A DNA stretch of 64,000 nucleotides, taken from positions 1 to 64,000 of the forward strand of contig JAHDQJ010000048.1 of the NCBI GenBank assembly GCA_018433865.1. Direction: 5' to 3'. Origin of the DNA: Spirochaetales bacterium. Lineage in GTDB: Bacteria > Spirochaetota > Spirochaetia > Sphaerochaetales > Sphaerochaetaceae. The position numbers were made by a program, and so were the translations under genes. Below, in pieces: positions 1,874 through 29,014 of the stretch. A model generated the notes under the pieces. The model ran no database searches and was not told the origin of the DNA. It was given only the letters and a program-made list of their open reading frames with translations. How positions within the stretch are numbered: position 1 is the stretch's first letter; each line of letters opens with the position of its first letter.

Positions 1874-3415
1874 CTACTCATTCGTAGCGACATGAAATAG
1901 CTTATCATAGACATCTTCAAAGTGTTCAATCTCTGCTTCAGTTAGCTGTAGGAATTCATTCTCACGTGCCCGTTTTGATAGCTTTCCCTCATTCTGTGAG
2001 AAAAAACTATACAAGAGAAAGACGGTAGAATCAGGCATTTCAACGGAATCCTGTACAGAGCCTCTGAACCGATCATAATTTACTAGGAATCGTGTCTCTT
2101 CCGGGAGATCATGTTCAATCGTTTGCTGTACACAATGATAGAGAAACACAGCATAGGAGGTAGCATCAAAGTATCGGTAGTAGTCCACTGTCGAATTCAG
2201 CACACGTACATTGTGATCTTCTGTAGGTTCCCACCTTATGAACGGGAGAATGCTATGTGAGTAATCTTTAAGGATGGATGCATATTCCTCTATTCGAAGT
2301 AACATTGCACTTGATATAGGAAATATCATTCCTGGGGGATTGTACCCATGCTCTGCAAGAATATGATGGATGAGATATCGATGAATTCTTCCATTTCCAT
2401 CAGAGAATGGATGGATAATCACAAAGCCGAAGGCAATCACAGCCGCGGCAACGACTGGGTCGATTTCTTGGGAAACTTTCTTTTCATATGCAAGAAGTCC
2501 TGAGATCAAAGAGTCTATATCTTCATATTTAGCACTTATATGTTCAACAATGGGTGTCCCAGTTTCTCTATCATGTTCACCAATGAAACCACCTTCTTCT
2601 CTGAACCCTATCTTCACAAAACCTCTAGAGCCTATCACTATCTGTTGGAGACGTATCAGTTCCTCTTTAGTCAAAGGTGATTTCCCTGCTTCTCTCAACG
2701 CATTGCCCCATCGCTGAATCCTATCATGCGAAGGTGTCTCATTTTCTATGGAAAAACTTGCTTTGGAATCTTTAAGTAGCAAGAATGCTGCAGCACGAGC
2801 TATGACATCCTTTGGGATATCTGAAATGACTTGGAGAGCTTTTAATTTAAAGTTCTTCATGAGGAATTCTTCAAGTTCTTCAGTTTTCCTGATCAGCGGA
2901 CAAAAATCAGGAGTCCCTGGAAGATTGTTCACAACACGATGTCTCTTGGAATTTTCTCCCTCTATGGAAATTTGGTGTTTGGGATTAACAACCAATACGT
3001 AATTACCTTTCTTGGCATCCGGGATATCAAGGAGTGTTCCCATGAGCCATTCATAGAGAAACCAAATTCGTCTACTGTATGAACCGGTACTAGTCTCCTG
3101 AATGATAGTTTCTATCGTTTGTTTATCGACTACCTCGAACAATTTTTTCAATACACATAAATCTATCCCTTCATATTTTAAAGCGAATTCAAGGTGGCCT
3201 TTGAGAGTTTCTTCGGGTTGATGTCTGGGTGTCAGCAAGTGCCACCCCAACCTTTTTACAATACTATGCTTCAAACCTATTGCCATTTTCAGTCGGGGAA
3301 AAGGTGCAGGAAGTAGGTATGCATCAATAAGAGCCACATACCCAACAGGAATTGCCTTCTCTGGCAGCAAGAATTCATGAAAAACGGTTACAGGTCCTGA
3401 AAATATATTATTCAT
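1874..3415 (-). CDS. Fic-domain AMPylase with its own inhibitory helix
   Basis: Fic proteins transfer AMP, or sometimes another nucleotide group, from a nucleotide to hydroxyl side chains of target proteins. The canonical active-site motif HPFSDGNGRIHR is complete at about residues 335-346, with catalytic His335. Upstream, about residues 220-225, is S-F-S-I-E-N, fitting the (S/T)xxxE(G/N) inhibitory helix that blocks ATP binding, so the enzyme is probably autoinhibited (class II, inhibitor N-terminal to the Fic core). An ATG 54 bases into the longest frame is preferred because AGGAGA sits 8 bases before it. The product is 513 residues, monocistronic and AT-rich compared with the chromosome, suggesting acquisition. 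Target unknown. Confidence 0.9.
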   Translation of the reverse strand: MNNIFSGPVTVFHEFLLPEKAIPVGYVALIDAYLLPAPFPRLKMAIGLKHSIVKRLGWHLLTPRHQPEETLKGHLEFALKYEGIDLCVLKKLFEVVDKQTIETIIQETSTGSYSRRIWFLYEWLMGTLLDIPDAKKGNYVLVVNPKHQISIEGENSKRHRVVNNLPGTPDFCPLIRKTEELEEFLMKNFKLKALQVISDIPKDVIARAAAFLLLKDSKASFSIENETPSHDRIQRWGNALREAGKSPLTKEELIRLQQIVIGSRGFVKIGFREEGGFIGEHDRETGTPIVEHISAKYEDIDSLISGLLAYEKKVSQEIDPVVAAAVIAFGFVIIHPFSDGNGRIHRYLIHHILAEHGYNPPGMIFPISSAMLLRIEEYASILKDYSHSILPFIRWEPTEDHNVRVLNSTVDYYRYFDATSYAVFLYHCVQQTIEHDLPEETRFLVNYDRFRGSVQDSVEMPDSTVFLLYSFFSQNEGKLSKRARENEFLQLTEAEIEHFEDVYDKLFHVATNE

Positions 3416-3613
3416 GCAGTGATCTCCTGAATTCTTATTATAATATAGTGTTATCCGTGATTTGTACATATATTTTATGAAAAGTGATTATACATGATTG
3501 TCGTAGGTGAAAAACCAGGTTTAAGGTACTAGGCACCAAAATTCTGCAGTTGTCGTTGCTCTTGCATAAATATGCAGATTCAACTTTCCGGGCTTCGTCT
3601 CTCCTGTCTAGCA

Positions 3614-4034: not shown

Positions 4035-4712
4035 TTATGGTGACTTCGATGCGGTTGTACCCGCCGGAGAGTCTGTCATGCGGTATGGATGATATGACCG
4101 GATGGATGCATTGATCCTGCGGTGCTTGGCAATCGCCCCTGCGAACAGGTCCCACGTCTCGTCCAACAACTTCTGCTCCGCTTCCCTGCCTTCCTTGGTG
4201 GCTGGCGACAGGTTCTTCTTGTCCGAGAACTTGGAGTGGAAATAGACCTTCTGGATGCCGAGCTTCGTCCAGAACCCCTCAAGGTTCGTCCATGCCGCCT
4301 GCACGCCGACCGAGCCGGTTTCGCTTGCGGGCGACATGTAAATCTTCTTGGTGGCAGCCGGAAGCAGGTACGCCGCGGAACACCCCATTGACACCGTGAA
4401 GGAATATGCCATGAGCGAGGCTGGTGGCTCAAAGTCAGAAGGTGAAGCCGAGTGTGAACACACTACATACGCCTCGTTGCAATACGGCAGATAATCCTGC
4501 ATCTTGTGGTCGCTCATAAAATCCTGTCTGCTGGACTTGATTTCATAAGCCAAAACCATTGGATTGGCCCATGATTTTTTCATGGCCCAGGCGTCCATAC
4601 GACGCGCACCGTGTTCGATGGTAACTTCCTCATAAAACACATCGTCGACATGTCGCTTTGCAAGTAACTTCCTTATATTTGTTACTACCGTGTTTCGGTC
4701 TAAGCTCATCAT
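4035..4712 (-). pseudogene. Chimera of an MmcB-like nuclease start and an S49 peptidase fragment
   Basis: Residues 1 to about 88 resemble MmcB-family DNA-repair nuclease proteins: basic N-terminus, RRMDAWAMKKSW, then YEIKSSRQDFMSDHKMQDYLPYCNEAYVV with the E-x-K signature. From about residue 95 the sequence switches to the middle of a phage S49 (SppA/protease C-like) peptidase: GCSAAYLL holding the Ser nucleophile, SPASETGSVGV, then KLGIQKVYFHSKFSDKKNLSP and LFAGAIAKHR. After that the similarity stops and an unrelated 25-residue tail follows. Neither half is complete. I infer in-frame deletion junctions that removed the prophage packaging and capsid genes. The start overlaps the upstream stop and follows GAGAGGGGG. 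Confidence 0.65.
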
Positions 4713-14723: not shown

Positions 14724-14933
14724 CTACTTGGGCTTCTGCTCGTAGTCCTCAAGCCACTTGACGATGGACTCTGGACGGAACAGCACCTTGGAACGCATCC
14801 GAAGCACAGGGATCACCCCGGCGGCAACCATGCGGTCCAACGTCCTCACGGACACCCCGATCTGCTTGGCGCACTCATTGCGGTCCCATGTGCGCTTCAC
14901 CACGGCGTCAGGAGCCTGCGCTTGCGCTTCCAT
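14724..14933 (-). CDS. MerR/excisionase-type helix-turn-helix protein
   Basis: The ATG at 14933 has AAGGAGCAG upstream; the longer frame is not needed. Residues about 12-69 are a classic HTH_17 excisionase-like fold: TWDRNECAKQIGVSVRTLDRMVAAGVIPVLRMRSKVLFRPESIVKWLEDYE. Such proteins act as recombination directionality factors or small regulators. As the second gene after the early promoter, it could direct prophage excision or control early transcription. The start lies inside the 3' end of the upstream RHH gene. Confidence 0.8.
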   Translation of the reverse strand: MEAQAQAPDAVVKRTWDRNECAKQIGVSVRTLDRMVAAGVIPVLRMRSKVLFRPESIVKWLEDYEQKPK

Positions 14934-15105
14934 CGGACTGCTCCTTGGTCTGTTGCGAGACAGCACGTTCCAACAGGATGTTCACCATCTGGTTGAACGA
15001 GCGCTTGTCATCCTTGGCCAACAAGTTCACCTCTGCCGCAAGATCCTTAGACATGCGGAGGGAAACCTTCTTGACCGCCTCTTGCTGTATGTTTGATTGT
15101 TTCAT
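14908..15105 (-). CDS. Ribbon-helix-helix (Arc-like) regulator, first gene of the leftward operon
   Basis: The 65-residue product contains KKVSLRMSKDLAAEVNLLAKDDKRSFNQMVNILLERAV, the strand-helix-helix pattern of Arc/MetJ-type repressors that dimerise and insert a beta ribbon in the major groove. The promoter just upstream leaves almost no leader: the -10 box ends six bases before the ATG. A second RHH gene (15320-15643) diverges from the same control region, so the two may form opposing switches or a mixed regulator. Confidence 0.78.
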   Translation of the reverse strand: MKQSNIQQEAVKKVSLRMSKDLAAEVNLLAKDDKRSFNQMVNILLERAVSQQTKEQSDGSASAGS

Positions 15106-15111
15106 GCTGTC

Positions 15112-15140
15112 ATCTTACTATCACTTTGCTGTACCGTCAA
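15112..15140 (-). promoter_or_regulatory. Strong early promoter reading left
   Basis: On the minus strand TTGACG (15140-15135), a 17-base spacer and TAAGAT (15117-15112) form a near-consensus sigma-70 promoter. The first gene's ATG lies six bases after the -10 box, so transcription should start at or beside the ATG, predicting a leaderless message for the first RHH gene. All leftward genes down to 3614 could be driven from here. Confidence 0.8.
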
Positions 15141-15187
15141 GCATTTTGTGAAACTTTTTACCAGCATTTTTACAGCACCGAGCATCA

Positions 15188-16277: not shown

Positions 16278-16958
16278 ATCGGGAGATATTCTGTTATTAT
16301 GATAACATTCTGTTGCGTTTTGCCCTGTTGCGTCAAGATTTTGTTAGGAATCTGAGAAAAGACGGGGCGCGCACGGTTTGGCCCCGTTGTACTCGGCCCT
16401 CCACAGTACCTTTTGCCCCCACATCTAGCGTCTTTCTTCCCGCCTTCCTGGATTTCCCCGCTACCTATAGCGTGCCCATATCTAGTGCCTCGGTCCCCTG
16501 GTTGCCCCCATATGTAGCGTGGTACTTGCCCCGGCTCGGCCCGCTGCGATCGATTGCCGCCGGGCTTGCCCTGGTTCCTCGGCTGGTTCCTCGGCTGCAC
16601 GGCTTGCTCCTTGCTATAGGACCGGCGCCCTATTGCCCCCTATCATTGCCCTATTGCCCCGGCTATCGCGTCGGGCTATAGCTTGCCCGGTTCCGTCGGG
16701 CTGCTACATTGCCACCATTCCATGTGATCCCTTTATTGCCATTGTTGGCACACTCTATGCTATTCGCGCGCGTTACATATACATATTAGGGGCGCTGCTA
16801 TGCAATCCAGGCAATCCAGGCGATCCATGCAATCCAGGGCGGGCTATTGCCGCGATCCGTGCTTAAAAATGTTTATTGTAATTACTATTGACACCAAAAT
16901 AATGTCATGGTAATATCAAATTGTCAGTATGGCAATTATAAATTTTAAGGGGGAATAT
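16278..16958. repeat. C-rich low-complexity region with short direct repeats
   Basis: There is no convincing gene in this stretch. The plus strand is strongly pyrimidine- and C-rich. Imperfect copies of a CCCCCATATCTAGCGT-like word occur near 16419, 16462, 16475 and 16505. A tandem pair of TGGTTCCTCGGC occurs near 16575, and TATTGCCCC words occur near 16630-16660. Frames through it translate to Pro/Leu/Arg-rich nonsense without ribosome sites. It forms the left flank of the G-run cassette and may be a control or replication region. Confidence 0.6.
16802..16837 (+). repeat. Iteron-like tandem GCAATCCAG repeats
   Basis: Four nine-to-ten-base units, GCAATCCAG twice, then GCGATCCAT, then GCAATCCAG, stand nearly head to tail. 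A GCGATCCGTGC word follows at about 16852 and recurs at the other flank near 20253. Tandem short repeats next to AT-rich DNA (16865-16925) resemble iterons of plasmid or phage origins, though no initiator is obvious nearby. Confidence 0.5.
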
Positions 16959-19173: not shown

Positions 19174-19346
19174 CAATCGAGGAAAACACTTTATGGACCG
19201 AGGGGCGCGGCCTTTGGTATGAATATGTGCGTATTAACGGCTATTCGTGGAAACCATGCAGGGCAGGATTGAAAAAATTGGCTAGCTTGCTTGACTTGAC
19301 TGTCGCATACATAAGCAAGCGTATATGGATCTACCTTAACAACTAA
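19170..19346 (+). CDS. Small HTH-like protein, 58 residues
   Basis: The ATG overlaps the previous stop (ATGA). The second half, RAGLKKLASLLDLTVAYISKRIWIYL, has the length and hydrophobic pattern of a helix-turn-helix (LASLLDLTVAYISK). The first half is aromatic (LWTEGRGLWYEYVRINGYSW). It is short enough to be overlooked, yet coupling to its neighbour supports it. Confidence 0.5.
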   Translation: MTIEENTLWTEGRGLWYEYVRINGYSWKPCRAGLKKLASLLDLTVAYISKRIWIYLNN

Positions 19347-19354
19347 ACCACCAG

Positions 19355-19405
19355 GGCGGCCGGCGTTGTCGCCCCGCCTCTATCGTTGTCTTAGGGGCAA
19401 CGATA
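19355..19405 (+). other. Second pair of consecutive hairpins
   Basis: Hairpin one (19355-19378) pairs GGCGG-cc-GGCG with CGCC-CCGCC around TTGT. Hairpin two (19381-19405) pairs TATCGTTG with CAACGATA around a nine-base loop. The layout (GC hairpin with four-base loop, two-base gap, 8-bp hairpin) repeats that at 18668-18718 while the base sequence differs. This is compensatory evidence for a real RNA structure between genes of the cassette. Confidence 0.6.
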
Positions 19406-19448: not shown

Positions 19449-19838
19449 ATGATAAACCATAGAGTATATAGAGGTTTCAACGGCGATGAATTTCCGAATA
19501 GCCCATATTTTTTTAGCAAAAGCCAAGAACATGCCGCCGATTATGGGAAAACGGTGGCAAGGTATGAAATATCTTTTTCTCGGCTTTTTGATTCTTCTAG
19601 TGAAAGCGATATAGAGCAGCTTATTGATGTTGTTGGACCGCTCGAAGATCCCTACGACAATGCCATCTACAATACCCCACAATCCTTTATAAGCGCGTGC
19701 GCGGGGTGCGATACATGGGAACCGATTGAACAGCATATATGCGCGATACGGGCTATGGGATACGACGCAATCCGCATATATGAGGGTGGATTTGAAAACT
19801 TTATAATTTTTTCAAAGGATCAGATCAAAAGGCTATAA
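19449..19838 (+). CDS. ADP-ribosyltransferase-like phage protein
   Basis: The 129 residues start HRVYRGFNGDEFPNSPYFFSKSQEHAADYGKTVARYEIS and end GYDAIRIYEGGFENFIIFSKDQIKRL. A Y-R-G strand, then S-x-S-x-x-x-A-x-x-Y-G, then a late E-G-G-x-x-x-F/Y-x-I-F strand is the outline of small ART-fold proteins (R-S-E type order) found in phages and polymorphic toxins. TAGGGGGCTTTT precedes the ATG. The identity of the catalytic Glu is uncertain, so this could be a structural relative without activity. Confidence 0.45.
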   Translation: MINHRVYRGFNGDEFPNSPYFFSKSQEHAADYGKTVARYEISFSRLFDSSSESDIEQLIDVVGPLEDPYDNAIYNTPQSFISACAGCDTWEPIEQHICAIRAMGYDAIRIYEGGFENFIIFSKDQIKRL

Positions 19839-22298: not shown

Positions 22299-22343
22299 AA
22301 ATTGTGCGGTTTGTTCCTATAAAATTGTGCGGTTTGTTCCTAT
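22299..22343. repeat. Tandem direct repeat, two 22-base copies
   Basis: Two identical 22-base units, AAATTGTGCGGTTTGTTCCT plus AT, follow each other with one base between. The copies are exact, so they are recent or under selection. They sit in the gap between the last rightward gene and the tRNA-like cluster. Role unknown; candidates are a protein-binding site or a recombination scar. Confidence 0.8.
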
Positions 22344-22479
22344 CACAGAAGCCATACGCTATCTACGGAAAGTCGGATATCGTCGAACTTCGTGACCATA
22401 ACGGCACAAATTGCGATTATAGCCGAAGTGGCTGTCGCTTATTGCAAGATATCGCTGAAACTCACTCCACATGTAGACC
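22344..22479. other. Non-coding spacer before the tRNA-like cluster
   Basis: I see no supported gene or structure. Frames across this stretch are short, lack ribosome sites and overlap the terminator and tRNA-like sequence on the opposite strand. Confidence 0.4.
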
Positions 22480-22510
22480 AAAAAAGGGGAGGGCGCTTTC
22501 ACGACCTCCC
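22480..22510 (-). terminator. Rho-independent terminator of the tRNA-like cluster
   Basis: On the minus strand GGGAGG and CCTCCC form a 6-bp stem around a 12-base loop, followed by one C and six T bases. It lies downstream of the two tRNA-like genes in their reading direction and would end their transcript. Confidence 0.75.
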
Positions 22511-22599
22511 AACTCCTTGTGCATCATGGCACATGAATCAAAGCCGTTTGCCTGCTGTCGGTGGACGTCATCACCTAGACAGGACTTACTGTCGGCTAT

Positions 22600-22690
22600 A
22601 GGACCGGCAAGACTCGAACTTGCACGGCTCGGATGCGTATACCATCCAGCTCCCCAGTCTGCAACCGCCGTCACGATTGCACCCGGTCCT
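22600..22690 (-). tRNA. tRNA-like gene, 91 bases, anticodon unclear
   Basis: A perfect 7-bp acceptor stem (AGGACCG with CGGTCCT) encloses a clean T arm (GCAAG, loop TTCGAGT, CTTGC). Inside are a TGCAA/TTGCA stem and a GGATG/CATCC stem with loop GTATACG. The length suits a class II tRNA, but no single fold gives a normal anticodon arm. If GTATACG is the anticodon loop, the anticodon would be ATA. It may be a phage tRNA with an insertion, a decayed tRNA or a tRNA mimic. Confidence 0.5.
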
Positions 22691-22841
22691 ACACCCGTCT
22701 TTCCGGGCTGTCAGACACTTCCCTCTCGATCGCGTTGGTCGTTCGCAATCACGGACAGTATTCTACCGCCACTATCCGGTTTCTCCGTACTTCCGGCAAG
22801 TTTCCAGCACCATTGATTGCGCTGGCACTCATTATGGGTTT

Positions 22842-22911
22842 AGCAGGGGCAGGACTCGAACCTGCAACCTCGACGTTATGAGCGTCGCTGTCTGCCTTTG
22901 ACGTACCCTGC
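22842..22911 (-). tRNA. Phage tRNA with CAT anticodon (Met or Ile2)
   Basis: Reading left: acceptor GCAGGG with CCCTGC (6 bp; the outer pair is a C-T mismatch), D arm GTC/GAC with a GG-containing loop, anticodon arm CGACG-CTCATAA-CGTCG giving anticodon CAT, and T arm GCAGG-TTCGAGT-CCTGC. The fold is good apart from the outer acceptor pair. No CCA is encoded. CAT could be elongator Met or, if the C is lysidinylated, Ile. Confidence 0.75.
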
Positions 22912-23109
22912 GATGACCGCCGATTTGCATAGGCTGGCTCGGCGGGGCCTCTTTGCCTTCACGGACGATAGTCCATGCGAGGGTGCAGGGCTTTCCCCTG
23001 CGTGTTACATGATGCACCTCCCAAAAGATGAATCAGAAACCTTGTAGCTCATTATATCATGGGGTTTCGGCGATCCGGCAAGTAGTGTCGGCGAATATCA
23101 TGAGAAATG
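22912..23109. other. Non-coding spacer with stem-loops
   Basis: Between the tRNA and the small-gene operon there are two hairpins readable on the minus strand: GCAGGG/CCCTGC with a short GAAA-type loop (about 22986-23002), and CCGCCGA/TCGGCGG (about 22918-22946). A 61-codon frame across this stretch overlaps the tRNA and has its ribosome site too close to a GTG, so I do not call it. Confidence 0.4.
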
Positions 23110-23283
23110 CTACTCACCAAACCTCCTGTCAAACTCCCGTGACAGCGCGTTGGTGATCCGATCAACCTGCGCTGCAAAATAGATCAATTCCTGGTCGTCG
23201 AGTTCGTCGAGCGTCCACAGGAAATCGCCGATATCCCTGCTCATGAGTCCGCTGGTGAACGTGATGTCCCACTTGACTGCCAT
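23110..23283 (-). CDS. Small acidic protein, last gene of the integrase operon
   Basis: The ATG overlaps the upstream stop as TAATG. The 57-residue product (MAVKWDITFTSGLMSRDIGDFLWTLDELDDQELIYFAAQVDRITNALSREF) is helical and acidic. The reading frame is short but tightly coupled. No family recognised. Confidence 0.5.
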   Translation of the reverse strand: MAVKWDITFTSGLMSRDIGDFLWTLDELDDQELIYFAAQVDRITNALSREFDRRFGE

Positions 23284-23543
23284 TACTTGCCACTTCCCCT
23301 CAATACGACTCTATACTCGTCCATGCTCTCATCTTTAGCACGCCGTGGTACAACCCTGTTGCTCTCGCGTATGGCTTTGTACTTTGCAAAGACCAGTTCG
23401 CCACACGCAGGATCGTTCTCCGTGACCTTTGCGTGAAACTTGTGACAAGTATAGTCGCCGTTCGTCGGAGGGAATCCTCCATAGTAGTTGTAGGTACACC
23501 ATATGCAATTACTGCAAACCTTCCTGTGTGGTCTTACGCCCAT
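23283..23543 (-). CDS. Cys-rich small protein
   Basis: CAGGAGTTTGA precedes the ATG. Four to five cysteines (CSNCIWC near residue 10, then CHKF and CGEL) could bind zinc in a ferredoxin-free ribbon. The 86-residue product ends in a basic segment. It belongs to the run of small Cys-rich genes downstream of the integrase. Function unknown. Confidence 0.5.
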   Translation of the reverse strand: MGVRPHRKVCSNCIWCTYNYYGGFPPTNGDYTCHKFHAKVTENDPACGELVFAKYKAIRESNRVVPRRAKDESMDEYRVVLRGSGK

Positions 23544-23594
23544 TCAAACTCCTGTTTCATTGAAAACGCTTGTTTCACCGCCGTGGTGAAAGTG

Positions 23595-23912
23595 CTAAAG
23601 GGATGTAACTTCCGGTGTACTTCCGGGGTCGCGACTCTTGGACGGTGTTCCCAGTCTAAGAAACGCTTCTGTATTGCCAACCCATGGCCTTAATGTAAAG
23701 TTCTTGTCCTCGGTCGTTTTCCCTTCCTTGAGGTCGCACAACCACAGGATTCCCGGTTCGATATCATATTTTTCGCCCTTGTCAGTCATGAACTTGCGGT
23801 AGTCTGAGTACATGCTAACCAAGTTGTCGACATACCGCACAACTTCGTCGCGCTTGACGCCAATCTCGACCATCGGCACAACAGCCCTTTCCAGGGCCTC
23901 TTGATACGTCAT
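23595..23912 (-). CDS. Unknown small phage protein
   Basis: I place the start at the ATG at 23912, ten bases after GGAGGG. The N-terminal half is helical (TYQEALERAVVPMVEIGVKRDEVVRYVDNLVSMYSDYRKFM) and the C-terminal half is polar. A 51-base gap separates it from the next gene, the largest in this operon. No family recognised. Confidence 0.45.
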   Translation of the reverse strand: MTYQEALERAVVPMVEIGVKRDEVVRYVDNLVSMYSDYRKFMTDKGEKYDIEPGILWLCDLKEGKTTEDKNFTLRPWVGNTEAFLRLGTPSKSRDPGSTPEVTSL

Positions 23913-23927
23913 CACACCCTCCTATTC

Positions 23928-24563
23928 TCAACCAGTCTGCTTCTCTGGAACCTTAACCTTAGCAGCAAATATATTCCAACCAATCAGACATTTTTCTCTA
24001 AGCATTTCAGGGTGGCCAAACCCTAACAAGACGGATACTTCATACGTTGCGCCACATTCACAAACTGCGGCATAACAATAGTTATCATGCTTTTTGTTAT
24101 ATTGTACGCCGAGTGTTGGAATCTTTCCGCATTGAGGGCACGGGACTATATCTTTAGAGATGTCCAAGTCGGCAACTTTAGCATAGGACAAAATCCAATA
24201 GTCAGACGCATTGATGATGTCCAGCGAATTGTCGTGTTCGTCATCAAATTTGATTGGACTGTTAAAATCATCAATACCATGATAGAACGTGAACATGATG
24301 TCGTCCCCAAGTGCAGTTGGATCAAGTTTGCACGACTGTGACAGGTTGACAAACTTGAAGGTGACTGGATTTCCGTCATGTAGATAGTGAACACCACTTC
24401 CGTCAAACGGGTCTAATCCAGGAACTTCATACAATCTGTATGACCGCTGTTTCTCATAGCTTTCACCTTCGCACTCAAGACAAAGGTCGCCCTTGTGCAA
24501 CACCTTGCCATAACGATCCTTGTACTCACGATCTCTAAAATCCCTTTTGTCATGAACGTACAT
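23928..24563 (-). CDS. Lar-like zinc-ribbon protein (possible restriction alleviation)
   Basis: The C-terminal 75 residues contain PCPQCGKIPTLGVQYNKKHDNYCYAAVCECGATYEV and later KCLIGWNIFAA. The pattern CPxCG-x(n)-C-x-CG-A and a late WN is that of Lar/YdfD-type restriction-alleviation proteins, which modulate host type I restriction. The N-terminal 140 residues are an unrelated acidic domain. The ATG overlaps the upstream stop (TGATG) and follows AGGAGGG. The family call is by pattern. Confidence 0.55.
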   Translation of the reverse strand: MYVHDKRDFRDREYKDRYGKVLHKGDLCLECEGESYEKQRSYRLYEVPGLDPFDGSGVHYLHDGNPVTFKFVNLSQSCKLDPTALGDDIMFTFYHGIDDFNSPIKFDDEHDNSLDIINASDYWILSYAKVADLDISKDIVPCPQCGKIPTLGVQYNKKHDNYCYAAVCECGATYEVSVLLGFGHPEMLREKCLIGWNIFAAKVKVPEKQTG

Positions 24564-24919
24564 CACGCCCTCCTGTTCCAAGCGTCGATGGCTTGTTGTT
24601 TGGTTTTACCAGTTGCGCGCATTGTGATGCCATAGCTTTCCACGACAGCCATCCATGAGTCCTTGCCGACCTCGTACACCGACGGATACACTTCCTTGTA
24701 CCACGGACACGGCAGACACCCCTCCTCATTGAGGATTCCAAGGTCTTTGATGATGAACCTGTAGCCGGACTCGCAATCGTCGAGTCCATGCACCCACATG
24801 CACCCCCCTTGGTTGCCGTTGTACAGGCAACCTTGGCACAGGCATGTCGGGTCGATGGCCTTGAGCATGTGCGGGTGTCCCTTGATAATCTCAACCCATT
24901 GGTCGCCTAGCTTGTGCAT
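24563..24919 (-). CDS. Cys-rich protein with a Lar-like end
   Basis: Cysteines occur as CLCQGCLYNGNQGGC and CLPCPW, suited to one or two zinc sites. The C-terminal GKTKQQAIDAWNRRA matches the A-x-x-x-W-N-x-R ending of Lar-family and related phage proteins. The 118-residue product is upstream of and coupled to the larger Lar-like gene, so the two may work together against restriction. Confidence 0.5.
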   Translation of the reverse strand: MHKLGDQWVEIIKGHPHMLKAIDPTCLCQGCLYNGNQGGCMWVHGLDDCESGYRFIIKDLGILNEEGCLPCPWYKEVYPSVYEVGKDSWMAVVESYGITMRATGKTKQQAIDAWNRRA

Positions 24920-25035
24920 GTGTTAACCTCCTTGTTAACCATTTTGTTGACGCCAACAAAATCGTCATAATATTCATCATCGTCCAAATCATCATCGAAT
25001 GGTACGTCAAACCAATCATCATCCCAATGAGTCAT
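24907..25035 (-). CDS. Very acidic 42-residue protein
   Basis: The ATG overlaps the upstream stop as ATGA and follows GGAGGACGT; its stop lies within the next gene. About 16 of the first 27 residues are Asp or Glu (WDDDWFDVPFDDDLDDDEYYDD), giving a strongly negative helix or strand. Such charge density recalls DNA-mimic anti-restriction proteins (Ocr, ArdA), but at 42 residues it is much smaller, so this is a suggestion. Confidence 0.55.
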   Translation of the reverse strand: MTHWDDDWFDVPFDDDLDDDEYYDDFVGVNKMVNKEVNTCTS

Positions 25036-25292
25036 ACGTCCTCCCAAACCTTCATACTGTTCCATGTCATACCTTTATCATACGTCCCAAGATATGCTAT
25101 CAATGCTTTTTTAATAATTCCAGCTTCCAAAACCTCGTTGGTGATTCCGGCACACGCATTGACACAAGCTACGATTCTTTGTGCATCCTCTATGTACGTC
25201 ACCCTCGCAATATCCTCTCTTTCGGATTTACTGATGACTACACGCGGGTACAAGGGTTCCCATGTGTTCCATGGCTCTTTCGTATGTTTCAT
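25032..25292 (-). CDS. Small phage protein of the HTPGPW type
   Basis: The product opens MKHTKEPW and later has EDAQRIVACVNACAGITNEVLEAG, the common phage pattern H-T-x-x-P-W ... A-x-R-I-V-A-C-V-N-A-C-x-G-I. This family is very widespread in phages and has no known function. GGAGGACGT precedes the ATG. The 86-residue length is typical. Confidence 0.65.
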   Translation of the reverse strand: MKHTKEPWNTWEPLYPRVVISKSEREDIARVTYIEDAQRIVACVNACAGITNEVLEAGIIKKALIAYLGTYDKGMTWNSMKVWEDV

Positions 25293-25627
25293 ACGTCCTC
25301 CTTCTGGTCGTGGACAAGAGTAAGCGCATACTTGGTAACAGCACCGTGTAATGCTGATATCTTTCTCCGAACACGCTTTCTCTCACGGATTAGATTAAGC
25401 ACAACCTCGCATTTTTGACACATCTCAACATCTTCATCCTCACAATACCTTAGATACGAATAACAGGGGCCTCTTTCTTTTGAAGCCATAAAATACCTAT
25501 CCAGTTGAGATAAGTCATCCCAAAAGTCCTTATGGCAATCATTATGTGTACTTTGGTTAATTTTCTCTGTTAAATGGTTTTCATACATTTTTACAGTGCC
25601 TAGCTTTTTTAATGTTTCTTCGATCAT
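25289..25627 (-). CDS. Unknown helical protein with Cys residues
   Basis: GGAGGGGAG precedes the ATG. The 112-residue product has a helical start (IEETLKKLGTVKMYENHLTEKINQ), then CYSYLRYCEDEDVEMCQKC and a basic helix (RERKRVRRKISALHG). Four cysteines in the middle may hold zinc. It overlaps the following gene by four bases. No family recognised. Confidence 0.5.
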   Translation of the reverse strand: MIEETLKKLGTVKMYENHLTEKINQSTHNDCHKDFWDDLSQLDRYFMASKERGPCYSYLRYCEDEDVEMCQKCEVVLNLIRERKRVRRKISALHGAVTKYALTLVHDQKEDV

Positions 25628-25629
25628 CT

Positions 25630-25944
25630 TTATTTCTCCCCTCCGACACGCTCGTCGGTGAAATGCTCAAAGTAGTAGTGCGTCTGACACAGACTCAAGT
25701 GCGCACCTCCGTCTAGTTTTACTTCGCCGTACATGTCTGGCGATTTCGTAGAATCCGGCTCACCAAACAGCGGGCACCAGTCGCCACAAGGACGAGCGAC
25801 CGGCTCTCTCACGATGTCATTATAATTGGGGACTTTGTAGTCTCTTTGCATCGATTGAAATGGACACGATTGCACACGCATCTGGTTGCCGCGGCCAACC
25901 ATCAAAACGCCTTCTGAACCTAGTACGATTATCTTTCCTTTCAT
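25630..25944 (-). CDS. Unknown Cys-containing protein
   Basis: The start is the ATG at 25944, after GGAGGCGAAATC and overlapping the upstream stop (ATGA); longer versions lack a site. The 104 residues include CPFQSMQRDYKVPNY, CGDWCPLFGE and a final CQTHYYFEHF, a metal-binding-like spacing. It may be an adaptor or enzyme fragment; nothing more can be read. Confidence 0.5.
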   Translation of the reverse strand: MKGKIIVLGSEGVLMVGRGNQMRVQSCPFQSMQRDYKVPNYNDIVREPVARPCGDWCPLFGEPDSTKSPDMYGEVKLDGGAHLSLCQTHYYFEHFTDERVGGEK

Positions 25945-26102
25945 GATTTCGCCTCCGCTTCCTTGTTCTTCTCTTTCTCTGCTTGTTTGTTCACGGCCTC
26001 CCAAAACCAAGAAAAAGGAATACCGCTTTCCTTGTATGCTATATGGACAGCATTAATAACAGCCAGCGTTTCTGCTACGCTTTTATCCAAAGGAACACTC
26101 AC
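25941..26102 (-). CDS. Small protein, 53 residues
   Basis: A GTG start overlaps the upstream stop (GTGA) and the stop overlaps the next ATG. The product is VSVPLDKSVAETLAVINAVH and a charged tail ending EKEKNKEAEAKS. Both overlaps support translation, though the ribosome site is weak (GGCGGAGG lies inside the end of this gene and serves the next). Unknown function. Confidence 0.45.
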   Translation of the reverse strand: MSVPLDKSVAETLAVINAVHIAYKESGIPFSWFWEAVNKQAEKEKNKEAEAKS

Positions 26103-26326
26103 TCCACCACCTCCGCTTGCTTAATGCTGCGTATTGATCCAAACCGCATTACTTCTTCCGCTTCTAGTTTAGAACACAGCTTGCCTCTGATTAATGGATG
26201 CCATGCGAACTGCCTTCCGCAACCATGGCATTTCAGCGTGTGTACATCAATCATGTGTTTCCAACACAGGTCACACACTTGGTTTTCAAATACTTCCAGA
26301 ATGGGGTCTGGTTTATAGTTCATCAT
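26099..26326 (-). CDS. Small zinc-ribbon protein
   Basis: GGAGGTAGAGTA precedes the ATG. CDLC near residue 18 and CHGCG near 32 with histidines between form a two-knuckle ribbon. The 75-residue product is one of at least five Cys-pair proteins in this operon. The partner is unknown. Confidence 0.55.
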   Translation of the reverse strand: MMNYKPDPILEVFENQVCDLCWKHMIDVHTLKCHGCGRQFAWHPLIRGKLCSKLEAEEVMRFGSIRSIKQAEVVE

Positions 26327-26592
26327 TACTCTACCTCCATTTGTTCGTGGATGTTGCTGATGATTTCCATTTCATATTCTTCATCCCATGGTTTATCAGA
26401 CGCAAGCTCTTCGTCTATGCGTTCTTTCATGTATCGAACTTGGTCAACAACCTTCTCTGCTGAGTCCTCGCAATCACAGACGCACTCAAGGCCGTCGGAG
26501 AGCCTGAATACGGATGTATACAGCTCACTCCAACCGCCAAGACATTTCTCTCGCTTTACCTCGATTTCATGCCCACGGTATATAACCTTCAC
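26326..26592 (-). CDS. Unknown acidic protein with CDCED motif
   Basis: A GTG start (AAGGAGGAAAGGAA-GTG) overlapping the upstream stop is preferred over a longer ATG version that starts within the previous gene. The 88 residues begin VKVIYRGHEIEVKREKCLGGW and contain ECVCDCEDSAEKVVDQVRY, then acidic helices. This beta-then-helix layout is common in small phage proteins of unknown role. Confidence 0.5.
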   Translation of the reverse strand: MKVIYRGHEIEVKREKCLGGWSELYTSVFRLSDGLECVCDCEDSAEKVVDQVRYMKERIDEELASDKPWDEEYEMEIISNIHEQMEVE

Positions 26593-26816
26593 TTCCTTTC
26601 CTCCTTGATTATTGCGGTAATGAAACTCTCGTGTATCCCACAAATACAGGAGAAAAACATTTCATCCGTACGCTCAAGATCTTCTCTTGTGGCGACAAGA
26701 TTATATAAATTAGTTCCATCACAATCCCTTCGGAGTTCCTTTATGAACATACGGACTCCGTTTTCCAGCCCAACAAGGCTACCAACTCGATATTTATGCT
26801 GTTTACGTTCAGCCAT
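26589..26816 (-). CDS. Unknown small protein
   Basis: The ATG at 26816 overlaps the upstream stop (ATGGCTGA) and follows GGGGAGG. The 75-residue product (KYRVGSLVGLENGVRMFIKELRRDCDGTNLYNLVATREDLERTDEMFFSCICGIHESFI) has an SH3-like beta start. No family recognised. Confidence 0.5.
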   Translation of the reverse strand: MAERKQHKYRVGSLVGLENGVRMFIKELRRDCDGTNLYNLVATREDLERTDEMFFSCICGIHESFITAIIKEERK

Positions 26817-27006
26817 TCCCAACCTCCCCAACCTCATAGATTGGCACACTAGTTTTCTTGCCCCTATACTTCTCTGCTGCCTCACGAGTATTGAACACCG
26901 CACAGGCGCCGATCATTCCTTCTGCCCAATTTAGATTTACGGTGACAGGGTTCCCGAAAAAGTCTACTTTTTGCTTTCTCTCTATAACCATAAGTAAATA
27001 CATCAT
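26809..27006 (-). CDS. Unknown small protein, 65 residues
   Basis: The frame begins ATGATGTATTTACTTATGG; the first ATG follows GGTAGG. The product has a basic hydrophobic start, then DFFGNPVTVNLNWAEGMIGACAVFNTREAAEKYRGKK, resembling a single RRM-like or ferredoxin-like half. It overlaps genes on both sides by a few bases. Confidence 0.5.
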   Translation of the reverse strand: MMYLLMVIERKQKVDFFGNPVTVNLNWAEGMIGACAVFNTREAAEKYRGKKTSVPIYEVGEVGNG

Positions 27007-27410
27007 TTACCTACCTCCACTTCTTCTACAGTACCAGCCGTTTCTGGGTAATAATCACTTTCTACCATAAGCCCAACGATCCCTATATGACCATGATCGC
27101 GTAACCACAAAAGTACCTTGAGTACATCGTCTTTCGGTAACTCGGTGCCACTACAGACCTTTTCAATAAACTCGCCACACGGATTTGTTTCATCTCCCAT
27201 TGATGGTGGTATTTTCTTCACCATGGTTTTTGGCACCTCAACAAGAGGGTGTGTCCCAGGGCAGTCGTCAGAATCCATATACTCGGGGTTACAGTGCATA
27301 CAGAACGTAAATCCACACAGCTCACACTTCGGGCCATTGTGAATGTCACCATACTCAAACTGCCACTTGTCAATATTCCCGTATTCGTCAAGACGCCATT
27401 TATGTTTCAT
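27003..27410 (-). CDS. Cys-rich protein next to the integrase
   Basis: AAGGAGTAGTT precedes the ATG, which lies two bases after the integrase stop. CELCGFTFCMHCNPEYMDSDDC is a dense Cys cluster about residues 29-50, suited to a zinc finger; the rest is helical (LPKDDVLKVLLWLRDHGHIGIVGLMV). At 135 residues it is the largest of the Cys-rich group apart from the Lar-like gene. Confidence 0.5.
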   Translation of the reverse strand: MKHKWRLDEYGNIDKWQFEYGDIHNGPKCELCGFTFCMHCNPEYMDSDDCPGTHPLVEVPKTMVKKIPPSMGDETNPCGEFIEKVCSGTELPKDDVLKVLLWLRDHGHIGIVGLMVESDYYPETAGTVEEVEVGK

Positions 27411-27412
27411 AA

Positions 27413-28792
27413 CTACTCCTTTTCCTGTAAACGTTTACATTCCGTAGACCCAACCGAGTCCTCCACAATCTCCGCTTCTCCCACGATGAGGTGCGATATA
27501 TCCGCTATCGACTTCACCATATCAAGCCGGTTCTCCGCACGGGTATAGATATCAGTCATCTCCTTGCTTTCGTGGCCGACCGTCAGACGCAGTTTGTCGC
27601 CGGTAGCCCCCAATGCCTGCGCCTCGGTATTGAAGAAGTGCCGGAAGCTGTGGAAGCTGATGTTACGCCCGCGCCTCATCATCTCACCTGCACGCACCAT
27701 CAACGGCTTGCCCTCCTTGTCGAACTTGCCACGGGCGGTCGCATCGGTGTCCTCGACCATCGTGCCGACCTTGACGCCTGCCTGCGCTTCCAATACGTCG
27801 TAGAGATGGCCGTAGAAGTTCTCGCGGATGTACGAGGACGCGACAGGCCCGTTGTCCTTCGCACCGCCGACCGTCCAGAACACCAAGGAGGATCCCGTCG
27901 TGTTCTTCGCCGCCATGTCCAGCAATTTGTTCGCCAGCCAAGTGGGGCAGGGTGTGGAGCGCGTTTTCTTCCCTTTGGTCGATTTCTCGCCGCCCTTGAT
28001 CGACCACGACTTTGAAACATGGATGATGGCGTCCTGCTCATTGACCACATTGATGTCGTTCGCATAGAGCGCGCGGATCTCTCCGAGGCGCATCCCCGTG
28101 GCTGCGGCCAAGAGGACGGCGAGATACACATGCTCGGTCGCGTTCTCCTTGAGGACGACCAGCACCTTCTGGAACTCGCTTCGGGTGAGGATGCCCCTCT
28201 GTCGCTCCGGCGTGGTGTCGACATGTTCCACCAGCTTGGTCGGGTTCTCATGGATCATGTCGTTCTTCCACGCGTCCCTCAATGGCTTGGTGAAGGCGAC
28301 CATGATCTTGTCGACCGTCGAGTTCGCCATGGCTCCCGAATCGATGAGTTTGTTGGATATGTCGCGGACGAACTTGGGCGACACGTCGGCGACCTCCATG
28401 CCCTTGCCGACGAGCGGGACGATGTGCGTCTTGATGTATCCGCGCATGATGCCTGCGTAGTTCTCGCTGACAGCCCCCGGACGGCGCTTGTTCAGCCTCC
28501 TGATGCGGATGCCCGTGAAGTCCCAAAAATCGAGCAGGTAGTCGGTCAGCAACTCGCGGCTTCCCCGGTTGATCTTGATGAACCCGCGCTCGTAGGCCAA
28601 GACGACGATGCGTTCGCACTGTCGCTTGCTCTTGAGCTTCGGGTGTTCCTCCTGCAACCCCATGCGCTTGACCAGGCTCTTGACCGACAGCATGGGGCTG
28701 CGCTTTCCGTCGCCGACGAGGTATTGGAAATACCAGCCGAAACCGTCGCGCTCGAACACGGTGTACTTGAAATCTGCCTTGGTTCTTGGCAT
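27413..28792 (-). CDS. int: Tyrosine integrase of the prophage
   Basis: This 459-residue site-specific recombinase has an N-terminal DNA-binding region, a SAM-like core-binding domain (about 85-185) and a catalytic domain with Arg235 (ATGMRLGEIRAL), His381 and Arg384 (HSFRHF), His407 (GHES) and nucleophile Tyr416 (DIYTRAE), a full R-H-R-H-Y set. GGAGG precedes the ATG. The gene ends within two bases of a chain of small genes, so it is the first gene of an operon. Its start lies 150 bases from the tRNA-Val gene, identifying the attachment region. Confidence 0.96.
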   Translation of the reverse strand: MPRTKADFKYTVFERDGFGWYFQYLVGDGKRSPMLSVKSLVKRMGLQEEHPKLKSKRQCERIVVLAYERGFIKINRGSRELLTDYLLDFWDFTGIRIRRLNKRRPGAVSENYAGIMRGYIKTHIVPLVGKGMEVADVSPKFVRDISNKLIDSGAMANSTVDKIMVAFTKPLRDAWKNDMIHENPTKLVEHVDTTPERQRGILTRSEFQKVLVVLKENATEHVYLAVLLAAATGMRLGEIRALYANDINVVNEQDAIIHVSKSWSIKGGEKSTKGKKTRSTPCPTWLANKLLDMAAKNTTGSSLVFWTVGGAKDNGPVASSYIRENFYGHLYDVLEAQAGVKVGTMVEDTDATARGKFDKEGKPLMVRAGEMMRRGRNISFHSFRHFFNTEAQALGATGDKLRLTVGHESKEMTDIYTRAENRLDMVKSIADISHLIVGEAEIVEDSVGSTECKRLQEKE

Positions 28793-28898
28793 GTTCGGGC
28801 CTCCTACGTCAAGTGTAGACCCTCATTTTCCATCCGGCAATTAGCCATCAAAACATATATCAAAAACCATCAAATTTTGTGTTTTGGTGCATTTTGAT

Positions 28899-28940
28899 AA
28901 AAAAATAGCACCTAACTACTTATATTGTAATTAGATGCTA
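28899..28940 (-). terminator. Terminator of the tRNA-Val transcript
   Basis: Reading left, TAGCATCTAA and TTAGGTGCTA form a ten-position stem with one mismatch around a 15-base loop, followed by seven T bases. It begins directly after the tRNA 3' end. Because it lies inside the junction between tRNA and integrase, it may have come with the prophage and replaced the original terminator. Confidence 0.75.
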
Positions 28941-28942
28941 CA

Positions 28943-29014
28943 TGGGCGCGATTGGGTTTGAACCAACGACTTCTACCGTGTGAAGGTAGCACTCTCCCGC
29001 TGAGTTACGCGCCC
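28943..29014 (-). tRNA. tRNA-Val, anticodon CAC
   Basis: All arms fold well: acceptor GGGCGCG/CGCGCCC, anticodon arm CTACC-TTCACAC-GGTAG (anticodon CAC, reading GTG codons), T arm GTTGG-TTCAAAC-CCAAT, discriminator A. No CCA is encoded. The prophage integrase lies next to the 3' end, so this tRNA is the likely integration target (attB), with the crossover in the T arm/acceptor part. Confidence 0.95.

Follow-up and report, generated by a model that had tools for sequence, protein, structure and literature searches.

Variable accessory loci at fixed places in phage genomes are already known. In P2/P4 and in Vibrio K139-like prophages they occupy constant positions, in the latter between cI and int (PMC9122126). 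The Mu-like phages of Pseudomonas aeruginosa carry accessory short open reading frames (ORFs) in regions of genomic plasticity, which have been likened to the lambdoid nin region; a few of these ORFs encode anti-CRISPR proteins (PMC4378225). Rhodococcus phages have been reported to carry extensive arrays of small orphan genes (PMC13313380). In this work, we analysed a run of 16 genes on the minus strand of a 64,000-nt stretch (the window) of contig JAHDQJ010000048.1 from a Spirochaetales bacterium (assembly GCA_018433865.1). The run extends from 28792 down to 23110; its first gene encodes a tyrosine-recombinase integrase (int, g01), the following 15 are tiny (g02 to g16, hereafter the cargo), and a structured RNA element and tRNA-Met form its far edge. 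We consider it likely that the run is a cargo operon of accessory genes, led by int and belonging to a temperate tailed phage that resides as a defective Sphaerochaetaceae prophage at tRNA-Val(CAC).

The locus resembles the P2/P4 and K139-like hotspots (PMC9122126) in that a few kb of fast-changing genes lie between fixed phage features, int being one of them in the Vibrio case. It differs in that int is followed immediately by 15 tiny genes, coupled and all in one direction, in that an RNA element plus tRNA-Met forms its far edge, and in that no known defence system was recognised in the 10 of the 15 small proteins that were scanned. Like the accessory ORFs of the Mu-like phages, its genes are short, dispensable and tightly spaced and lie at fixed places. 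Some of the Mu-like regions are of low GC content, but they hold 0–6 ORFs each and no leading int (PMC4378225). We also compared 10 related integrase loci (L023–L032) of the same bacterial family, taken from 62 genomes with a match. Five of the 10 have int 120–155 bp past the 3′ end of a tRNA gene and reading away from it, and one (L023), with an integrase about 40% identical, uses tRNA-Val(CAC), whereas none of the 10 gene lists shows int followed by an extended series of tiny coupled genes. In the literature we searched, a description of such an operon was not found.

The original prediction had placed 16 left-reading genes here with short gaps or overlaps; their number, order, strand and coordinates all proved correct (Table 1). 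When for each gene the codon with the best ribosome-binding site is taken as the start, 14 of the 15 junctions in this tightly packed run measure between −13 and +15 nt, the outlier being a gap of 51 nt ahead of g15. A Shine–Dalgarno (SD) sequence matching at least five of the six bases of AGGAGG precedes 15 of the 16 starts. The starts so chosen differ from those of the longest ORF in g04, g05, g08, g11, g13 and g14. Counting ORFs of at least 40 aa with an SD match of at least 5/6, the chain of SD-preceded ORFs comprises 14 members on the coding strand and none on the opposite strand, with at most three in 300 dinucleotide shuffles.

One close phage relative was found, the IMG/VR contig IMGVR_UViG_3300036546_000216 of 53,668 bp (hereafter G139). 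It has the same plan as the window, i.e., int, 16 coupled small genes and tRNA-Met, and the two int are 74% identical. Homology at the DNA level extends from position 28988, inside tRNA-Val, to 27414, in the int stop codon, and returns only at 23027–22841, 83 nt beyond g16, with nothing between. None of the 15 cargo proteins matches any of 24 from the G139 cassette at E ≤ 0.01 (best, 0.031), and the latter cassette has internal duplicates in two groups. The GC content at third codon positions (GC3) is 0.82 for int, 0.50 for the cargo and 0.64 for other phage genes in the window, and, respectively, 0.76, 0.46 and 0.61–0.63 in G139. Because the edges are conserved in G139, the content between them is unmatched and GC3 is much lower in the cargo, we read the genes behind int as exchangeable cargo. 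In both phages, fixed edges enclose replaced content, this being a single comparison. A homologue in G139 was found for 14 of the 32 non-cassette genes versus one of the 15 cassette genes (P = 0.017).

Judging from the position and the kind of the genes, the job of the cargo is most likely that of small, individually dispensable modulators of host interaction (takeover, counter-defence, superinfection effects). Several points weigh against the interpretation as an exchangeable set of host modulators. The contrast in homologue content is weaker when only genes of up to 150 aa are considered (7/19 versus 1/15; P = 0.053), and turnover is seen beyond the slot, the plus-strand block having changed as well. 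The term exchangeable would apply to two phages, because just one close relative was found. The role in host interaction, moreover, is presumed from where the genes lie and what kind they are.

The control region upstream of int is shared by the two phages. The terminator-like hairpin between tRNA-Val and int keeps all of its 15 pairs in G139, where eight are the same, four are changed on one side and three on both sides. The promoter pattern has its counterpart in TTGCCA-17-TATACT, the 17-nt spacer being common to both. Within the run, the minus strand has just one promoter-like match (23680–23653), and the promoter scan overall is at chance level (seven matches, 8.4 expected), in line with the original prediction that no promoter is visible between the genes; the internal match is not a strong one. 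The joint expression of int and the small genes, likewise predicted, appears well supported by the anatomy of the locus, because the promoter pattern is conserved, the starts are coupled, a strong internal promoter is lacking and the layout in G139 is the same. These features fit a single transcript that would be insulated from that of the host tRNA gene.

We infer from the sequence that one transcript arises from the int promoter and that the gene set is replaced between fixed edges. The promoter just upstream of int would drive int and the 15 translationally coupled small genes; the phage-supplied terminator would shield the operon from transcription of the host tRNA gene; its mRNA would run toward the structured RNA and the phage tRNA-Met; and the gene set would change by replacement between these edges.

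Table 1. Features of the integrase-led run and of its two edges in the window.
Feature	Coordinates	Strand	Remarks
tRNA-Val(CAC), attachment gene	28943..29014	-	21-bp core 28968-28988 identical to G139 attP (phage attachment site)
Terminator-like hairpin, phage-supplied, between tRNA-Val and int	28905..28941	-	15 pairs + T run
Promoter pattern TTGCCG-17-TACACT, upstream of int	28812..28840	-	predicted by consensus match
g01 int, tyrosine-recombinase integrase, 459 aa	27413..28792	-	PF00589 46.9 bits, phrog_1
g02, 135 aa, CxxC x2	27003..27410	-	phrog_19574 (function of family uncharacterised)
g03, 65 aa	26809..27006	-	relatives: none found
g04, 75 aa, ATG 26816	26589..26816	-	relatives: none found
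g05, 88 aa, GTG 26592	26326..26592	-	C-terminus weakly phrog_98-like, E 0.0026
g06, 75 aa, CxxC x2	26099..26326	-	zinc-ribbon-like below cut-off (PF18912 19.4 bits, cut-off 27)
g07, 53 aa	25941..26102	-	relatives: none found
g08, 104 aa, ATG 25944	25630..25944	-	relative adjoins SSB, G139 replication operon
g09, 112 aa, CxxC x1	25289..25627	-	relatives: none found
g10, 86 aa	25032..25292	-	resembles phage hypothetical proteins, E 1e-3 to 3e-2
g11, 42 aa, Asp-rich, ATG 25035	24907..25035	-	relatives: none found (query: 52-aa ORF from 25065)
g12, 118 aa	24563..24919	-	C-terminal half weakly Lar-like, without second Cys pair
g13, 211 aa, ATG 24563	23928..24563	-	residues 141-197 weakly Lar-like, both Cys pairs
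g14, 105 aa, ATG 23912	23595..23912	-	relatives: none found
g15, 86 aa, CxxC x2	23283..23543	-	relatives: none found
g16, 57 aa, final gene	23110..23283	-	weak SD (4/6)
Structured RNA element, 114 nt, directly 5′ of tRNA-Met	22914..23027	-	conserved in G139
Phage tRNA-Met(CAT)	22840..22913	-	same place in G139

At the far edge, the RNA element and tRNA-Met of both phages can be folded into a consensus of 38 pairs, of which 26 are unchanged, two differ on one side and 10 on both, and none is broken, the fold having been derived from the same two sequences on which the pairs were counted. Single-sequence folding is moderately stronger than that of shuffles (z = −2.0 and −1.6). The Rfam scan of this edge fits the tRNA and no other family, and no hepatitis delta virus (HDV) family was met up to E = 5; a pattern scan of IMG/VR for the RNA element returned G139 only. 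We rejected an arrangement as in the tRNA-associated theta ribozymes, since these begin at the 3′ end of the tRNA (PMC10879173), while the element here lies on the 5′ side of tRNA-Met. Past tRNA-Met, at 22599–22690 on the minus strand, there is a second tRNA-like stretch (ARAGORN: tRNA-Tyr, anticodon ATA, 22599–22668), which folds strongly (z = −4.6). Its overall consensus fold with G139 is weak; its T-arm and acceptor end recur there (L022:9861–9887) with compensatory stem changes.

A more far-reaching proposal is that a plug-in operon is bracketed by two fixed elements, int together with its promoter and, at the opposite end, the covarying RNA with tRNA-Met. Whole sets of tiny coupled genes would be exchanged between these brackets and expressed in the lysogen, and the host would retain them once the virion genes had been lost, the RNA and tRNA serving as a recombination anchor or as an element at the end of the transcript. 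We regard this as rather unlikely.

The integrase itself scores above the curated cut-off (27.1 bits for PF00589) and matches phrog_1 with E = 1.3e-36. Tyrosine recombinases share the catalytic motif R...HxxR...H...Y, and the corresponding residues, R235, H381, R384, H407 and Y416, are invariant in an alignment of three sequences. Among viral contigs, its relatives are G139 and two distant ones; no closer relatives were found among genome contigs, and tblastn against known phages gave no match. The gene starts about 150 bp past the 3′ end of tRNA-Val(CAC) and reads away from it. The phage evidently carries the 3′ half of tRNA-Val, because homology to G139 begins inside the tRNA at 28988. In two genus relatives, the site is unoccupied, as the same neighbour gene and tRNA are followed by different DNA, and neither of them has a match to the integrase. 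The host 6-phosphogluconate dehydrogenase is 82–83% identical to that of two Sphaerochaetaceae metagenome-assembled genomes. The left end of the prophage could not be placed, because a search of the own genome assembly did not reveal the second attachment end; the left end of the contig cuts the prophage.

The prophage looks structurally defective, judged from its gene content. The G139 terminase and portal have no match anywhere in the own genome, and the head maturation protease of G139 is present only as residues 109–208 of 397. Unrelated virion genes elsewhere in the genome could have taken their place. The ORF at 4035–4709 on the minus strand is a chimera of a DNA-repair-like N-terminus and an internal protease piece of 98 residues that is 80% identical to G139, likely the scar of virion-gene loss. 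Near the left contig end, at 691–1407 and 1874–3469, are what we take to be a transposase-like and a Fic-like ORF. In all 16 genes of the operon, by comparison, the frames are open, despite the absence of terminase and portal homologues from the genome.

These open frames would also suit a prophage-encoded defence cargo, expressed in the lysogen and excluding competing phages as the diversity hotspots of P2/P4 do. The own promoter pattern, the place next to int and the high turnover between fixed edges over 4.3 kb agree with it, and PMC9122126 describes comparable hotspots of about 1–5 kb that are flanked by two conserved genes, in one case cI and int. Nevertheless, the PADLOC scan, which like that of NCBIfam covered 10 of the 15 small proteins (g02, g05, g06, g08, g09, g10, g12, g13, g14 and g15), gave no known defence family, its only match linking g12 with the model of a type II restriction enzyme (E = 0.054). 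The genes are, furthermore, far smaller than typical defence effectors, and the operon would have to be expressed in the lysogen. We hold such a defence function to be improbable.

Relatives of the cargo genes are scarce. Besides g02, g05, g08, g10, g12 and g13, none of them has a convincing relative in the searches made. With tblastn against phages, which covered eight of the 15 (g02, g05, g08, g09, g10, g12, g13 and g15), only g02 and g10 gave matches: that of g02 spans most of the protein and lies in the faecal phage MT835520, within an array of small Cys-pair genes, and those of g10 are hypothetical proteins from phages of Aeromonas, Pararheinheimera and Pseudanabaena. No relatives of g13 were found among viral contigs, and when the DNA from 22300 to 28942 was compared with known phages, tRNA-Met alone was matched, in two records. 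AlphaFold2 models of g13 and g02 (mean predicted local distance difference test, pLDDT, of 36.1 and 36.5) are too poor for fold searching, and the sequence matches of g13 in the PDB (E = 0.47 and 0.81) were regarded as chance. Morphogenesis genes were rejected, as profile searches gave no significant match; homology to morphogenesis factors would have spoken against the original prediction, and the only match to a structural family is that of g06 to tail chaperones (E = 0.021).

That the relative of g08 adjoins SSB in the replication operon of G139 suggests that genes move between modules. The same observation, along with the array around the g02 relative, would be expected if these were lytic-phase accessory genes, of the kind often packed among early or replication genes, which came to lie behind int by happenstance. 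However, at E ≤ 0.01 the G139 pieces contain relatives of no cargo gene other than g08, and the operon, with a promoter pattern of its own, is transcribed toward the adjacent plus-strand block, which reads in the opposite direction. We find this explanation doubtful and prefer that of an accessory cargo operon led by int.

The cargo is rich in cysteine beyond chance. CxxC occurs in six of the 15 small proteins (g02, g06, g09, g12, g13 and g15), with 1.8 expected from composition-matched shuffles (P = 0.0044), which bears out the prediction of at least five Cys-pair proteins. The motifs number 11 against 2.0 expected, a value that none of 5000 shuffles reaches. Cysteine makes up 3.8% of the small proteins versus 1.5% of 22 other phage ORFs and 1.2% of 28 host-side ORFs in the window.

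Two Lar-type patterns had also been predicted, with the suggestion of anti-restriction functions. The Lar zinc ribbon has two Cys pairs. In comparison with the Lar family (PF14354, TIGR03655, phrog_599), g13 shows both pairs (CPQC and CECG) and the overall spacing, its alignment spanning positions 3–52 of the 55 of the Lar model, and g12 the C-terminal motif. The patterns are thus present in g12 and g13, but they are weak and far under the curated cut-offs: with TIGR03655, g13 scores 18.0 and g12 14.5 bits (cut-off, 39.6), and with PF14354, 14.6 and 13.7 bits (cut-off, 28.6). Higher scores, of 23.6 and 22.4 bits, are reached at two other, unrelated places of this genome, and matches to the Lar model at E ≤ 0.001, none of them over the cut-off, occur in four of the six records examined and in three of the 14 control genomes. 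Since other places in the same genome and control genomes match too, we do not file g12 and g13 as Lar proteins, and Lar was rejected as a firm label.

Restriction alleviation is treated in PMC5512222 and PMC12707154. As the main role of the operon, i.e., Lar-type and Cys-pair proteins blunting host restriction at phage entry or integration, it would draw on the coverage of the Lar model by g13 and on the end of g12, which resembles a 63-aa Lar-type ORF of a related genome (E = 1.5e-4) that itself scores 36.9 bits. Against this stand the low scores and their background, the missing second Cys pair of g12 and a PADLOC scan of 10 of the 15 small proteins with nothing convincing. The search against anti-restriction families, which the original prediction had proposed, yielded no score over cut-off, and its anti-restriction function is unsupported beyond background. 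We judge this main role to be very unlikely; anti-restriction by one cargo protein is possible. When a short, Cys-rich protein of a phage is tagged as Lar-like, the background should be checked before an anti-restriction function is assigned to it.

Elsewhere in the window, 33 bp at 19346–19378 are 97% identical to G139 (L022:14356–14388), amid mostly unshared plus-strand genes, and are possibly a regulatory site. The stretches 16324–16430 and 14764–15170, near the point of divergent transcription, are conserved with G139 at 78% and 70%, respectively. The plus-strand ORF at 19449–19838 specifies a protein of 129 aa with weak similarity to an ADP-ribosyltransferase domain, ART-PolyVal (E = 0.0046, under the curated cut-off).

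Very few relatives of the small, putatively host-modulating proteins of spirochaete-family phages were found in these searches. If the interpretation of the locus as an integrase-led cargo operon is true, the slot from int to tRNA-Met would provide simple sequence anchors by which such proteins may be found.

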